NCBI RefSeq assembly: GCF_008087665.1
Contig: NZ_CP042912.1
Location: forward strand, 3,596,001 to 3,660,000
Reading direction: 5' to 3'
Source: Mariniblastus fucicola
Lineage (GTDB): Bacteria > Planctomycetota > Planctomycetia > Pirellulales > Pirellulaceae
Length of the DNA stretch: 64,000 nt
The notes beneath the pieces were generated by a model, which saw only the letters and a list, made by a program, of their open reading frames with translations, was not told the origin of the DNA and did not search any database. The position numbers and the translations under genes are program-made. Shown one piece after another: positions 24,152-59,757 of the stretch (within the stretch, counting starts at the first letter, position 1; every line of letters begins with the position of its first letter).

Positions 24152-27548
<3,397 letters not shown>

Positions 27549-27749: not shown

Positions 27750-27858
<109 letters not shown>

Positions 27859-53256: not shown

Positions 53257-54645
53257 ATGCTTCAATCGATAGAACAGCGTCTCATTGGAGACATGACGGA
53301 CTACGAACGTTCCATCCTGCGACACGGCGCGGTCTGGTTTTTCCTGATCCTGTTCAGCTACTACATTCTCCGTCCGATCCGTGAGCAAATCGGTTCGACG
53401 TACGGGATTGAAAATCTGTCGTGGTTGTTCTGGGCGACGTTCGTCGTGATGCTGATCGCAATTCCGCTGTACTCTCTACTGGTCGGCAAATTTCATCGGC
53501 GAATTCTCGTACCGAGCATTTACGCGATCTTCATTGGGTGCCTGATCGTGTTTTGGCTGGCAATGCGAAGTTTGCCGGAGTCGTACCAAATTTGGGTCGC
53601 GCGAGCGTTCTTTGTATGGATCAGCGTTTACGGGCTGTTCATCGTTTCATTTTTCTGGAGCGTGGCCGGAGACATGCTTTCGACTGCTCAGGGTCGACGC
53701 ATTTTCGGCATCATGGCGGGAGGAGGAACAATTGGTGGACTGGTCGGATCTCAGGTCGCGGCGACTCTCGTTGGTCGAATCGGCGTCGCCAATCTGTTGC
53801 TGATTCCTGTCATCCTGTTGGTCGCCGCCCTGTTCATCTACTTTTCGATGGAACGTTCGTTCAAACGCGCCGGCGATTCGAAAAAGAAAGATCTTGGCAG
53901 CGGAAACGCAACCGGAGGGAATCCGTTTGCGGGTTTTACGGCAGTGTTCAAGTCGAGATATCTGTTCGCGATCTGCATGTTCGGAATTTTCCTGGCGACC
54001 TGTGGAACTGCCGTCTATTTTCAGCAAGCCGAAATCGTGAAGGCAGCTTTCGAGGACATTGAATTCGACGCTTCGACAATCGCAAATGCGGACTCGTTGT
54101 CAGCCGAGTCACTCGAAGCCGAAAAATCCAAATTGCAGCAGGAAGTAGCCAAAGCAGCGCGAACGCAGTACTTCGCAAATGTCAATTTCGCCGTTTCTAT
54201 CGTGACTTTGATCTTCCAGTTCTTCCTTGTCGGATGGCTGATGAAGAAAGTCGGATTGGGCATGACACTGTCCGCCTTGCCGCTGGCCTATGTCGTTGGC
54301 ATTTCGGCGTTGGCGTTTTCACCAACGATCGGGGTGCTCGCCGTGGTCTCTGTGATCGGTCGGTCGGCTGAGTACGGGATCAGTAACCCGGCTCGCGAAG
54401 TTCTCTTCACGGCGGTGAATCGAGAGGATCGCTACAAGGCGAAAAGCTTCATCGACACGGTCGTCCGACGAGGCGGAGATTCTTCGGTCGGAGGTGTCTA
54501 CAAGTATGCGAGAGAGTCAATCGGTCTGGCGATGACCACGCTTTCTCTGATCATGATCCCAATCGGAATCGCATGGATCGGACTGTCACTGTTCATTGGA
54601 TTCGAAAACCGTAGAATCGTCGCGTCCAGGTCGTCTGACGAGTGA
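53257..54645 (+). CDS. MFS/NTP-NDP-exchange-like transporter
   Basis: About 462 residues from the ATG at 53257; ATGs at 53164 and 53293 are alternatives. There are twelve predicted transmembrane helices. VWFFLILFSYYILRPIREQIG near the start and RRIFGIMAGGGTIGGLVGSQ are typical of the Tlc/NTP-NDP-exchange-related MFS group in free-living bacteria. A soluble coiled segment (about 290-320, SADSLSAESLEAEKSKLQQE) separates the halves. KSFIDTVVRRGGDSSVGGVYKY near the C-terminus is conserved in the group. The substrate is unknown; in free-living bacteria it need not be nucleotides. Confidence 0.8.
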   Translation: MLQSIEQRLIGDMTDYERSILRHGAVWFFLILFSYYILRPIREQIGSTYGIENLSWLFWATFVVMLIAIPLYSLLVGKFHRRILVPSIYAIFIGCLIVFWLAMRSLPESYQIWVARAFFVWISVYGLFIVSFFWSVAGDMLSTAQGRRIFGIMAGGGTIGGLVGSQVAATLVGRIGVANLLLIPVILLVAALFIYFSMERSFKRAGDSKKKDLGSGNATGGNPFAGFTAVFKSRYLFAICMFGIFLATCGTAVYFQQAEIVKAAFEDIEFDASTIANADSLSAESLEAEKSKLQQEVAKAARTQYFANVNFAVSIVTLIFQFFLVGWLMKKVGLGMTLSALPLAYVVGISALAFSPTIGVLAVVSVIGRSAEYGISNPAREVLFTAVNREDRYKAKSFIDTVVRRGGDSSVGGVYKYARESIGLAMTTLSLIMIPIGIAWIGLSLFIGFENRRIVASRSSDE

Positions 54646-54756
54646 TGTGCGTCTTCGTTCGGCGACTTTGAGTTTTTACGCTTCGTGCATTGACCGAAAC
54701 AATCAGTTTCATTCGCGTGGCGTGCGCAATCTTGCATCAGCTAATGGAGATATCTA

Positions 54757-55080
54757 ATGGCGACAGAATTCACTTCCGAAGCTTTCTATTCCGAAGTGCT
54801 TGGATCCGAAACACCGGTATTGATCGATTTTTATTCCGATTCCTGAGGCCCTTGCAAAAGACTGGGTCCAGTCATTGAAGAGTTGGCATCCGAAAACAAG
54901 GACAACGCAAAAGTTGGAAAAATGGACGTCATGGAGAACATGGATCTCGCGGTGAAGTACGGCATTGCGGCCGTCCCAACGCTTCTGCTTTTCAAGGATG
55001 GAGAAGTCGTTGAAAGACTTCAGGGATACCAGGACAAAGCCAAGCTTCAGCAACTGATCGACGGACACGTCTCGGCATAG
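54757..55080 (+). CDS. trxA: thioredoxin-family selenoprotein (UGPC active site), read through in-frame TGA
   Basis: A 107-residue thioredoxin if the TGA at 54844-54846 (codon 30) is decoded as selenocysteine. The ATG at 54757 has GGAGA six bases upstream. The N-terminal half reads TPVLIDFYSDS-U-GPCKRLGPVIEELA, aligning with the canonical DFWAxWCGPCK: U takes the place of the nucleophilic first Cys, and Trp is replaced by Ser. The rest is intact: VGKMDVMENMDLAVKYGI, the cis-Pro loop AAVPTLLLFKDG and the C-terminal helix. Codon use and frame are preserved on both sides of the TGA. A SECIS-like hairpin follows at the right distance. A pseudogene with a nonsense mutation is the alternative, but no other damage is seen. 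It is monocistronic, with a strong terminator 26 bases after the stop. The visible frame after the TGA alone would be miscalled as a 65-residue protein starting at 54883. Confidence 0.82.
54844..54873 (+). promoter_or_regulatory. putative bacterial SECIS element
   Basis: UGA at 54844-54846, then 18 bases, then the loop GGUC (54865-54868) closed by the stem GACUG / CAGUC (54860-54864 with 54869-54873). The apical GGUC on a short stem about 18 bases after UGA is the arrangement I recall for the E. coli fdhF SECIS, which SelB recognises. Two further A-U pairs below one mismatch extend the stem. A bulged U as in fdhF is not evident. Confidence 0.7.
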
Positions 55081-55105
55081 CTTTCACCGAACGGCGTACA
55101 CATCG

Positions 55106-55139
55106 AAACGGCAAGCCCGAACTGGCTTGCCGTTTTTTC
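55106..55139 (+). terminator. terminator after the thioredoxin gene
   Basis: Stem AACGGCAAGCC / GGCTTGCCGTT with loop CGAACT, followed by six T. Confidence 0.92.
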
Positions 55140-56460: not shown

Positions 56461-57333
56461 TTATACATCCATAATCAACCGCGATGAATGCGAGTAGATA
56501 TTGAACCGGTTTTTTGATGCGAATCCGACCAGGGTGACTCCAAACTCATCAGCCAATTCGGCCGCAAGCGAAGAAGGTGCGCCTACCGCGACCAGGATTG
56601 GAATCCCGGCAGAGATGACTTTCTGGACCAATTCAAAACTCGCCCGCCCGCTCACCAAAGCCAAACTTTCAGACTCACGCAAACGCCCCGCAAGACACTG
56701 GAATCCAACAAGTTTGTCCAATGCGTTGTGTCGGCCAACGTCTTCATAACAGGCCACCAGTTTGCCGTCGGTCGCAAACAGTCCAGCCGCGTGCAGCCCT
56801 CCGGTTTCGTCGAACGTGGACTGACGCTCTCGCATCGTCGATGGAAGCGACGCAATCAAGCTCGCCGAAACCTTCATCGACGGAAAGCCTACCGAGTGAG
56901 TCAATTGTGCACGAACGGCATCCAATGACGCTTTGCCGCAGATCCCGCAACTTGATGTCGTATAGAAGTTTCGTTGCAAAGAACCGAAATCGAAACTCAC
57001 GCCTTCAGCGACATGGACACAAAGTTGATTGGTCAGTCCAGTGCATTCGTCTTTCGGCCCTGTCAGTTCGAACTGGGTAATCTGATCTGCTGAGGTGACG
57101 ATGCCTTCTCCCAATAAAAATCCGGCAGCCAACTCGCGGTCATGGCCAGGCGTTCGCATCGTGATCGAAAGCGAACGGTTTCTTTGATTCCCCGGCGATC
57201 CATAGACGATCCGAATCTCCAACGGCTCCTCGACAGCCAGAAAATCGGCTTTCTCAGTGAACGCACCGTTCTCAAATCGAATGATGCTTTTGGACTTTCG
57301 TCGCAGCTCCGGATTGGAATTCGATTCCGTCAT
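56461..57333 (-). CDS. fdhD: formate dehydrogenase accessory sulfurtransferase
   Basis: 290 residues. The start at 57333 overlaps the stop of the upstream gene by ATGA, so the two are translationally coupled; a longer frame to 57435 lies inside that gene. EEPLEIRIVYG, ITMRTPGHDRELAAGFLLGEGI and YTTSSCGICGK (Cys129, Cys132) are the FdhD signatures, and CYEDVGRHNALDKLVG and SGRASFELVQKVISAGIPI follow. FdhD moves sulfur from IscS to the molybdenum cofactor of formate dehydrogenases. No fdh structural gene lies in the window. Its nearness to a putative selenoprotein is of interest because many formate dehydrogenases contain selenocysteine. Confidence 0.95.
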   Translation of the reverse strand: MTESNSNPELRRKSKSIIRFENGAFTEKADFLAVEEPLEIRIVYGSPGNQRNRSLSITMRTPGHDRELAAGFLLGEGIVTSADQITQFELTGPKDECTGLTNQLCVHVAEGVSFDFGSLQRNFYTTSSCGICGKASLDAVRAQLTHSVGFPSMKVSASLIASLPSTMRERQSTFDETGGLHAAGLFATDGKLVACYEDVGRHNALDKLVGFQCLAGRLRESESLALVSGRASFELVQKVISAGIPILVAVGAPSSLAAELADEFGVTLVGFASKNRFNIYSHSSRLIMDV

Positions 57334-59480
57334 TTGTTGTTCGCGTTCTGCTCGGCTTTCTGAATCATCCTGTCCCAGGACACATAGAAAGACCAGTTTA
57401 TCACCGGAGCCAGACTCGCAAAATCGTCGCTCCATCGCGGGGCATCAACTGGCAAATCGTAAGGTTCGGCGGCAGACCGAATTCGCTGATGGTTGGCAAC
57501 TTTCTCGTTGGTTACCAAAACCCAGTGGCTTACCCTGGTTGATGTCGCGTCGCTGTTGACGTGCCTGACGTAGGTCGCTGCCAGCCCTCGGTCTGCTGCT
57601 GTCGCGAACAGGACTGGTTTCAGGTCGATAAATCGATTGGAAACATGGAACAACAGGATACCATCGTGCCGCAAGTGCTTTTCATAAACGTCAAAGCATT
57701 CATCCGTTAGCAGGTGAACCGGGATGGAGTCACTTGAGAACGCGTCGATGGCAAGAAGATCGAATTGCCGATCGATGCCACGACTGGTTTCCTTTTCCAG
57801 CCTGATTCGCCCGTCGCCAATCACGACCTCGCATTGCGATTCGTATGTCGGTAGAAAAGTAAACCACTCTCTGGCGATTGATTCGACTCGCGGATTGATT
57901 TCGTAGAACACAAATTCGTCGTCGGCCTCAGCCCAGGACAGCATCGAGCCAATTCCCAGCCCAAGCACACCTATTTTCAAGCCCGATCTCTTCGGAGATT
58001 CGTCGCTTGCGAGATCGCGTTGAGTTTTGACACAGATTGAGAATCCACTTCCGTCCGAGTAGTAACTGTGAGGCTCAAGACTGGGCTGCGGCATAACGAT
58101 TTGGCTGCCATGGTCAATCGTTCCGCTAATGAAAACACGTCGGTCACCATCCTTTTCGACCGAGAAAATGCCGTACTCGTTTCGACCATCCAGCAACACG
58201 CGGTCGATTCCGGAACGATTCAACGTTCCGAGAAAGCTGGACAGCGCCAGACCGCCAATGATCAAACTGGCGAATCCGATGCCAATTTTGCGCCCGCCGG
58301 AGATCGATTTTGAGAAACAGGGGACCGCAATGCCCAGCAAGAGAGCACCCATCAGAGCAAGCTGAAACTCTGCGAACCCATTGAATATTCTGGGCGCGAT
58401 GAGGACCACAAAAATCCCACCCAGCGATCCGCCCAACGACACGAACAGATAGAACAGCGTCAAGCTACTCACATGTGGCTTCATGCGTTCAAGCTCGCCA
58501 TGGCAGGTCATGCCACAAGCGAACAAACTGAAACTGAGCAGCAGGACCTGAAGGCCAGCCGACGCGTACGCGTTGAGCATCGCCACAGCAACTCCGGCGA
58601 TGACTCCGAAAAGCAACAGCGGGACGAACAGGCCGCGATGATACCAGCCTGGTTTTTCGAAGCAGATGATGAACGAGATCAGATACAGAGCCAGTGGCAG
58701 AATCCACAGGAATGGCACCGATGCGATTTCCTGGCACATCAAGTTGGTCGTCGCCAACAACATGACGGACGGAATCATGGCAAGCAGCAACCACAGCAGC
58801 ATTCGTCCGACACTGATGGACGGGACTGGCGATGCATCGGCGCGCGGGTTGTCTTTCGCGGCAGGCGCTTGCCACGAAGAGAAACCGCGGACTTGCGCGC
58901 CACCAAAAATGCACATCACGACGAATAGCGTGAACAGCCCTGACCAGATCCACGATTGATTCTGCAATCGCAAGTTCGGCTCAACCAGAAACGGATAGCT
59001 GATTAACGCGAGCAACGAGCCGATGTTCGACAATGCGTACAAACGGTAGGGCGAATCGGAAACTTCTGCCTTTGTCTCATTGCCGTGTGAAACGCTTTGC
59101 CACGCTTGAATCAGCGGTCCAGTGGTGGCGAGTATGAAGAACGGGATCCCGACCGACAGGGCCAGCACCTTCACGATCTCACCGGACAACGATTCGTACG
59201 AATCTGGCTTGAGCGACTCGGACGGAAGAACGGGGAGCGCGAACAAGGCCAACAACAAAACGACGCTGTGAACGATCCATGAGTTCCGTGGCGTCGTGAA
59301 CATTCGCAGGCCGTGCGAATACAAATAGCCAAGCAGCAGGACGATCTGAAAGAACATCATGCAAGTGTTCCAGACCGCTGCGGTTCCGCCGAACCACGGC
59401 AGGATGACTTTCGCAATCAGCGGCTGTACCTGAAACAGCAGGAACGCGCCAAGGAAAACTACGATGCTGTATCGGTGCAT
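57330..59480 (-). CDS. membrane protein with C-terminal spermidine-synthase-like domain
   Basis: 716 residues. The N-terminal about 420 residues have some ten or more transmembrane helices, starting YSIVVFLGAFLLFQVQPLIAKVILPWFGGTAAVWNTCMMFF cut here as a conserved opening of this family (QVQPLIAKVILPWFGGTAAV). The C-terminal about 270 residues form a class I methyltransferase-like domain: IGVLGLGIGSMLSWA, FYEINPRV, VVIGDGRIRLE and DLLAIDAFSSDSIPVHLLT. This fusion is common among uncharacterised bacterial spermine/spermidine synthase-like proteins. Whether it transfers aminopropyl groups is not known. Co-translated with fdhD. Confidence 0.87.
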   Translation of the reverse strand: MHRYSIVVFLGAFLLFQVQPLIAKVILPWFGGTAAVWNTCMMFFQIVLLLGYLYSHGLRMFTTPRNSWIVHSVVLLLALFALPVLPSESLKPDSYESLSGEIVKVLALSVGIPFFILATTGPLIQAWQSVSHGNETKAEVSDSPYRLYALSNIGSLLALISYPFLVEPNLRLQNQSWIWSGLFTLFVVMCIFGGAQVRGFSSWQAPAAKDNPRADASPVPSISVGRMLLWLLLAMIPSVMLLATTNLMCQEIASVPFLWILPLALYLISFIICFEKPGWYHRGLFVPLLLFGVIAGVAVAMLNAYASAGLQVLLLSFSLFACGMTCHGELERMKPHVSSLTLFYLFVSLGGSLGGIFVVLIAPRIFNGFAEFQLALMGALLLGIAVPCFSKSISGGRKIGIGFASLIIGGLALSSFLGTLNRSGIDRVLLDGRNEYGIFSVEKDGDRRVFISGTIDHGSQIVMPQPSLEPHSYYSDGSGFSICVKTQRDLASDESPKRSGLKIGVLGLGIGSMLSWAEADDEFVFYEINPRVESIAREWFTFLPTYESQCEVVIGDGRIRLEKETSRGIDRQFDLLAIDAFSSDSIPVHLLTDECFDVYEKHLRHDGILLFHVSNRFIDLKPVLFATAADRGLAATYVRHVNSDATSTRVSHWVLVTNEKVANHQRIRSAAEPYDLPVDAPRWSDDFASLAPVINWSFYVSWDRMIQKAEQNANNK

Positions 59481-59650: not shown

Positions 59651-59757
59651 CTGCCCAAAAGAGGACTCCGCACAAGAGTACCCCGCTTATGGCTGCTCCG
59701 GTTAAGGCCTGACCAGGTTCACGGCTCCCCCTCGCGGAGCCCACTTTTGGGCAGCAG
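59651..59757 (-). ncRNA. ffs: signal recognition particle RNA (4.5S type)
   Basis: On the minus strand the ends TGCCCAAAAG and CTTTTGGGCA pair perfectly. The apical domain reads CCTGGTCAGGCC-TTAACC-GGAGCAGCC, matching the Ffh-binding helix 8 (GUCAGG...AGCAGC asymmetric/symmetric loops). The tip is UUAACC rather than the usual GGAA-type tetraloop. The length of about 107 bases fits the short bacterial SRP RNA. It lies between two minus-strand protein genes in an otherwise gene-free 410-base gap. Confidence 0.88.

Follow-up and report, generated by a model that had tools for sequence, protein, structure and literature searches.

The window analysed here, a 64,000-nucleotide stretch (C1:3596001-3660000) of a genome assembled as a single 6.57 Mb contig, carries on its forward strand a gene (54757..55080) that almost certainly encodes a thioredoxin in which selenocysteine (Sec) replaces the attacking cysteine by means of an in-frame UGA. 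One frame runs from the ATG at 54757 to the TAG at 55078-55080; it comprises 107 codons, and its sole interruption is the TGA at codon 30 (54844..54846). We read this triplet as a Sec codon at the nucleophilic position, based on the TGA found in 14 other genomes of the genus, the TGC of sister genes and the Sec machinery of the genome. The predicted product is MATEFTSEAFYSEVLGSETPVLIDFYSDS-U-GPCKRLGPVIEELASENKDNAKVGKMDVMENMDLAVKYGIAAVPTLLLFKDGEVVERLQGYQDKAKLQQLIDGHVSA, U marking the one in-frame TGA, with the motif S-U-G-P-C-K. The ATG is preceded, at a distance of 7 nt, by a GGAG ribosome-binding site (54746..54749, forward strand), and downstream, on the same strand, a strong intrinsic terminator (55105..55136; -21.7 kcal/mol) consists of a 13-bp stem (55105-55117 / 55124-55136) followed by a T run. 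An earlier note, made from the sequence alone, had described an intact thioredoxin frame with one TGA at the nucleophilic Cys codon, together with an intact ribosome-binding site, terminator and cis-Pro loop, and all these points were borne out.

When codon 30 is read as Cys, the product scores 106.1 bits against the NCBIfam thioredoxin model TIGR01068 and 98.9 bits against Pfam PF00085, above the respective cut-offs of 96.8 and 23.5. Its AlphaFold model has a mean pLDDT of 94 and adopts a thioredoxin fold, the best PDB matches being thioredoxins with a TM-score of about 0.93. The in-frame UGA aligns with the catalytic Cys of Cys homologues, as is characteristic of Sec-containing thioredoxins of the UxxC type. 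Compared with housekeeping TrxA (TIGR01068), the fold and the cis-Pro loop (VPT) are the same and the Sec form is syntenic in some relatives; the gene differs by Sec for Cys and by Ser for the Trp preceding the motif, a substitution already remarked upon in the earlier note, so that its active site is SUGPC and not the canonical WCGPC. Standard annotation ends the gene at codon 29, and a complete redox protein would thereby be missed or truncated.

Sec and Cys forms within one genus

We searched 100 related genomes for homologues and read the loci at codon 30. Fifteen genomes of one GTDB genus (relatives of Mariniblastus, Pirellulaceae), the window genome and the 14 others, each contribute a thioredoxin with TGA at this codon; sister genes within the clade have TGC. 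Neither TAA nor TAG was found there, and the TGA always stands at the catalytic Cys codon. In subgroup A, SUGPC is the Sec motif of the window gene and of G016, and the Sec genes of G003, G007, G008, G017-G020, G023 and G025 read GUPPC; G013 is a Cys member (GCPPC). Subgroup B contains four Sec members, all GUPPC (G001, G002, G006 and G015), and three Cys members, all GCPPC: those of G009 and G014 plus a paralogue in the window genome itself (C1:5439578-5439895). No member of the clade has the normally conserved Trp ahead of the motif; Ser or Gly stands in its place (S-UGPC in the window, G-UPPC in most relatives). The earlier note had expected a UGPC form in a planctomycete to be easily lost in annotation, which is reasonable, with the amendment that most relatives are UPPC.

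In a tree computed with the Sec/Cys column masked, the selenothioredoxin clade stands apart from the ordinary WCGPC thioredoxins (support 95/98). The same tree calls for at least three, most simply four, changes between Sec and Cys within the genus. Across the phylum, the window gene is the only TGA form among the matches listed (the best ~150) from 392 planctomycetote genomes, so that the clade looks restricted to the genus; the contig scan used a single pattern with the motif spelled in Cys codons, which distant UGA forms elsewhere may escape.

The genomic context of these genes varies. Four genomes (G005, G011, G026 and G027) show the order rpsL-rpsG-fusA followed by an ordinary WCGPC thioredoxin and then a ptsI-like gene. 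The same fusA slot is filled, in the same orientation, by a GUPPC selenothioredoxin in G020 and G025 (genes of the fusA region were named by eye from their sequences). Thus, in part of the genus, the Sec gene holds the position of the ordinary thioredoxin. We rejected the placement of the window gene itself in this ancestral slot, as no thioredoxin lies near the window genome's own fusA. Among the regions compared, only that of G016 shares the surroundings of the window gene, which comprise genes for an MFS protein, a beta-helix protein and FdhD. The fdhD gene, coding for the formate dehydrogenase accessory sulfurtransferase (56461-57435, reverse strand), lies near the selenothioredoxin gene and far from the formate dehydrogenase gene.

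The hairpin 3′ of the UGA

Downstream of the UGA, on the forward strand, we identified a candidate bacterial SECIS core hairpin, GACUG-GGUC-CAGUC (54860..54873), from its likeness to the SECIS of E. coli fdhF and to the hairpin of the genome's own formate dehydrogenase gene, and from its synonymous conservation. It is made of a 5′ arm (54860-54864), a GGTC loop (54865-54868) and a 3′ arm (54869-54873). The earlier note had placed a hairpin 18 bases past the TGA; the hairpin is real, and 18 nt is the distance to the start of the loop, the stem beginning at 13 nt. The resemblance to fdhF that it had pointed out also holds, since the GGUC loop is the same and starts exactly 18 nt past the UGA in both. 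The window hairpin differs from fdhF by a continuous 5-bp stem without bulged U, and it is less stable (-11.7 versus -14.9 kcal/mol over 46 nt).

A published model of the bacterial SECIS (PMC13188914) specifies an upper stem of 4-16 bp, a UGA-to-loop distance of 16-37 nt, a minimum free energy (MFE) of -7.5 kcal/mol or lower and conservation at the RNA level. The window hairpin falls within these bounds, with its 5 bp, its 18 nt to a GGUC loop and an MFE of -11.7 kcal/mol over 46-47 nt, or -8.4 kcal/mol over 40 nt from the UGA; some homologues reach -4.4 to -7.3 kcal/mol, short of the threshold. RNA-level conservation takes the form of synonymous conservation without two-sided covariation: no pair of the stem changed on both sides. 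A search of the region against Rfam matched no bacterial SECIS family.

Taken alone, the hairpin is weak evidence because other synonymous codings of the same peptide can fold likewise: about 2% match its folding over 24 nt, and a 5-bp core stem arises in about 20%. Its stability is also no better than that of shuffled sequences (z of -0.1 to -0.4 in context). The earlier note's caution that the hairpin could be due to chance was therefore fair for one sequence, and it is removed by the comparative data. Indeed, the hairpin is identical in all 11 Sec members of subgroup A, even though they share only 58-67% protein identity with the window copy. Among five divergent subgroup-A Sec genes, the synonymous codons 34-40 agree in 60/70 comparisons (86%), versus 284/637 (45%) elsewhere, and these codons form the peak of synonymous conservation in a sliding window over the whole gene. 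The corresponding values for WCGPC homologues of the genus are 54/137 (39%) versus 860/1929 (45%). In subgroup B, genes sharing the peptide RELSPVI can be compared directly: three Sec genes retain a stem of 4 bp whose loop lies at +18, and two Cys forms (L023 and L028) are without it. Judged from these codon patterns, the hairpin is conserved at the RNA level, and its conservation across Sec homologues is strong evidence.

It could still be argued that the gene encodes a selenoprotein and that another structure or context recruits SelB. The stem is without the U bulge of fdhF, covariation is absent, and the fourth subgroup-B Sec gene, the UGA-containing GUPPC thioredoxin of G015 (L094 / L040), shows no convincing hairpin at the usual place. 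Against this stands the freezing of codons, which peaks exactly over the hairpin and does so in Sec forms only, and the match of the loop and the 18-nt spacing to both E. coli fdhF and the genome's own formate dehydrogenase gene. We thus regard a SECIS other than 54860-54873 as improbable, and the hairpin itself as the likely element.

Reading of the UGA

The codons located 3′ of the hairpin evolve under constraint. Indeed, dN/dS is 0.01-0.13 in six of the seven computable pairs and 0.36 in the remaining one, formed by close subgroup-B genes (all other pairs are saturated at synonymous sites). Such purifying selection on codons beyond the UGA indicates that the UGA is read through, and we infer from it that this codon is translated and is not a stop.

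Readthrough as such leaves the identity of the inserted residue unproven, and a suppressor or a Trp code could in principle supply another amino acid. A general code change is unlikely since neighbouring genes, such as the MFS gene ending at 54645, use TGA as their normal stop. Moreover, the homologous residue is Cys, and the genome contains a complete Sec machinery: tRNA-Sec (UCA), SelA, SelB and SelD, for which the earlier note had proposed to search, were all found above curated cut-offs. The tRNA-Sec lies at C1:3476450-3476545 on the reverse strand (96 nt, 70.1 bits, above the covariance-model cut-off), and ARAGORN calls the same locus tRNA-SeC with anticodon tca. The covariance model also matches all 14 control genomes, including genomes without Sec, so only above-cut-off matches confirmed by ARAGORN were used. 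Scores are 555.4 bits for SelA (cut-off 268), 355.7 for SelB (cut-off 242) and 265.1 for SelD (cut-off 125). In addition, the formate dehydrogenase alpha gene of the same genome (L222; C1:3928447-3930459, reverse strand; 801.6 bits) likewise contains just one TGA in frame, and the loop of a SECIS-like hairpin downstream starts with GGTC exactly 18 nt past it; on these sequence features it is a further selenoprotein and an independent Sec control. Altogether, insertion of a residue other than Sec appears very unlikely.

A further rival reading is a pseudogene or sequencing error, in which the TGA would be a nonsense mutation or a miscall leaving only a 29-residue peptide: one in-frame stop in a single genome, with several paralogous thioredoxins able to cover the loss, would fit this, yet it is for practical purposes refuted and hardly credible given the strong selection downstream and a TGA, never TAA or TAG, shared at the same catalytic codon by 15 separately assembled genomes.

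Two other loci of the genome deserve mention. The SelD match (L066; C1:4276027-4276941, forward strand) lies inside a far longer open frame of 767 aa, which suggests a fusion with an extra domain. A second thioredoxin with a lipoprotein-type signal (L179; C1:2030565-2030996, reverse strand) likewise has TGA as its catalytic codon (W-UGPC). Its homologue in G013 (L180, W-UPPC), 57% identical, keeps the hairpin-forming codons TTG AAG CCG GGG CTT. From this comparison, L179 is probably a second selenothioredoxin of the window genome.

Proposed function and known selenothioredoxins

Combining the frame, the homology, the machinery, the TGA/Cys exchange, the protein-level selection after the UGA and the RNA-level conservation of the hairpin, all established computationally, we infer that selenium is incorporated into the window protein. 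The explanation in which we place high confidence is a cytosolic thioredoxin with Sec in place of the N-terminal attacking Cys of CxxC, working by a selenolate redox cycle. In this scheme, SelB would bind the hairpin with its GGUC loop starting 18 nt 3′ of the UGA and deliver the Sec-tRNA(Sec) that decodes codon 30. The selenolate would then attack the substrate disulfide, Cys33 would resolve the mixed selenenylsulfide, and thioredoxin reductase TrxB, which was found in the window genome, would regenerate the protein. The likely selenothioredoxin put forward in the earlier note is thus supported, having survived both the search for the machinery and the comparison with relatives.

Selenothioredoxins are already known and form an established family, and selenoproteins are known in planctomycetes too. 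UxxC forms were reported in Treponema denticola, Geobacter, Anaeromyxobacter and Sargasso Sea data (PMC1794560, PMC1088965), and PMC13188914 lists selenothioredoxins as experimentally verified, citing Kim et al. 2015 (its ref. 84). The window gene has in common with the published forms the thioredoxin family PF00085, the Sec at the first, attacking position and a bacterial-type SECIS in the coding region directly 3′ of the UGA. Going by their descriptions, it differs in that its clade is without Trp before the motif (S-UGPC / G-UPPC), is found in one planctomycete genus in our sampling and includes some copies linked to fusA. The Porphyra-associated planctomycetes P1 and P2 (PMC4807772) belong to the same phylum and are described as having a full Sec machinery and a Sec-type FdhA; in the main-text passages concerned, thioredoxin is not named among their selenoproteins. 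Our literature search found no paper naming both Mariniblastus and selenoproteins. What is unusual here is the loss of the conserved Trp before the motif and the repeated Sec/Cys exchange within one genus.

Closely related genes of the genus carry either Sec or Cys at a single codon, some of them at the same chromosomal slot, and retention of the SECIS largely follows that of Sec. This makes the genus well suited to measuring the benefit that a thioredoxin draws from selenium and to following how Cys and Sec replace one another. The selenolate has a low pKa, Sec being ionised at lower pH. We propose, as a hypothesis only because the Cys members of the clade are likewise without Trp, that Sec could make the Trp before the motif dispensable. 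In S. aureus thioredoxin, this Trp helps to form the Cys thiolate, and its replacement by Ala cuts activity about five- to tenfold (PMC4678829). More tentatively, and with considerable doubt, part of the genus might have turned its main cytosolic thioredoxin, encoded beside fusA, into a selenoprotein, the Trp having been lost as a low-pKa selenolate no longer needs it. If so, the genus would represent a natural series (WCGPC, GCPPC, GUPPC, SUGPC) of a thioredoxin moving to selenium and back.

Finally, the window contains several structured RNAs. A group I intron (RF00028, 88 bits; 26042-26341, forward strand) lies within the 23S rRNA gene (24156-27546), and a 5S rRNA is located at 27751-27858. 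No 16S rRNA was found within the window, so that the 16S gene appears unlinked. A small bacterial SRP RNA (RF00169) is encoded on the reverse strand at 59654-59748.
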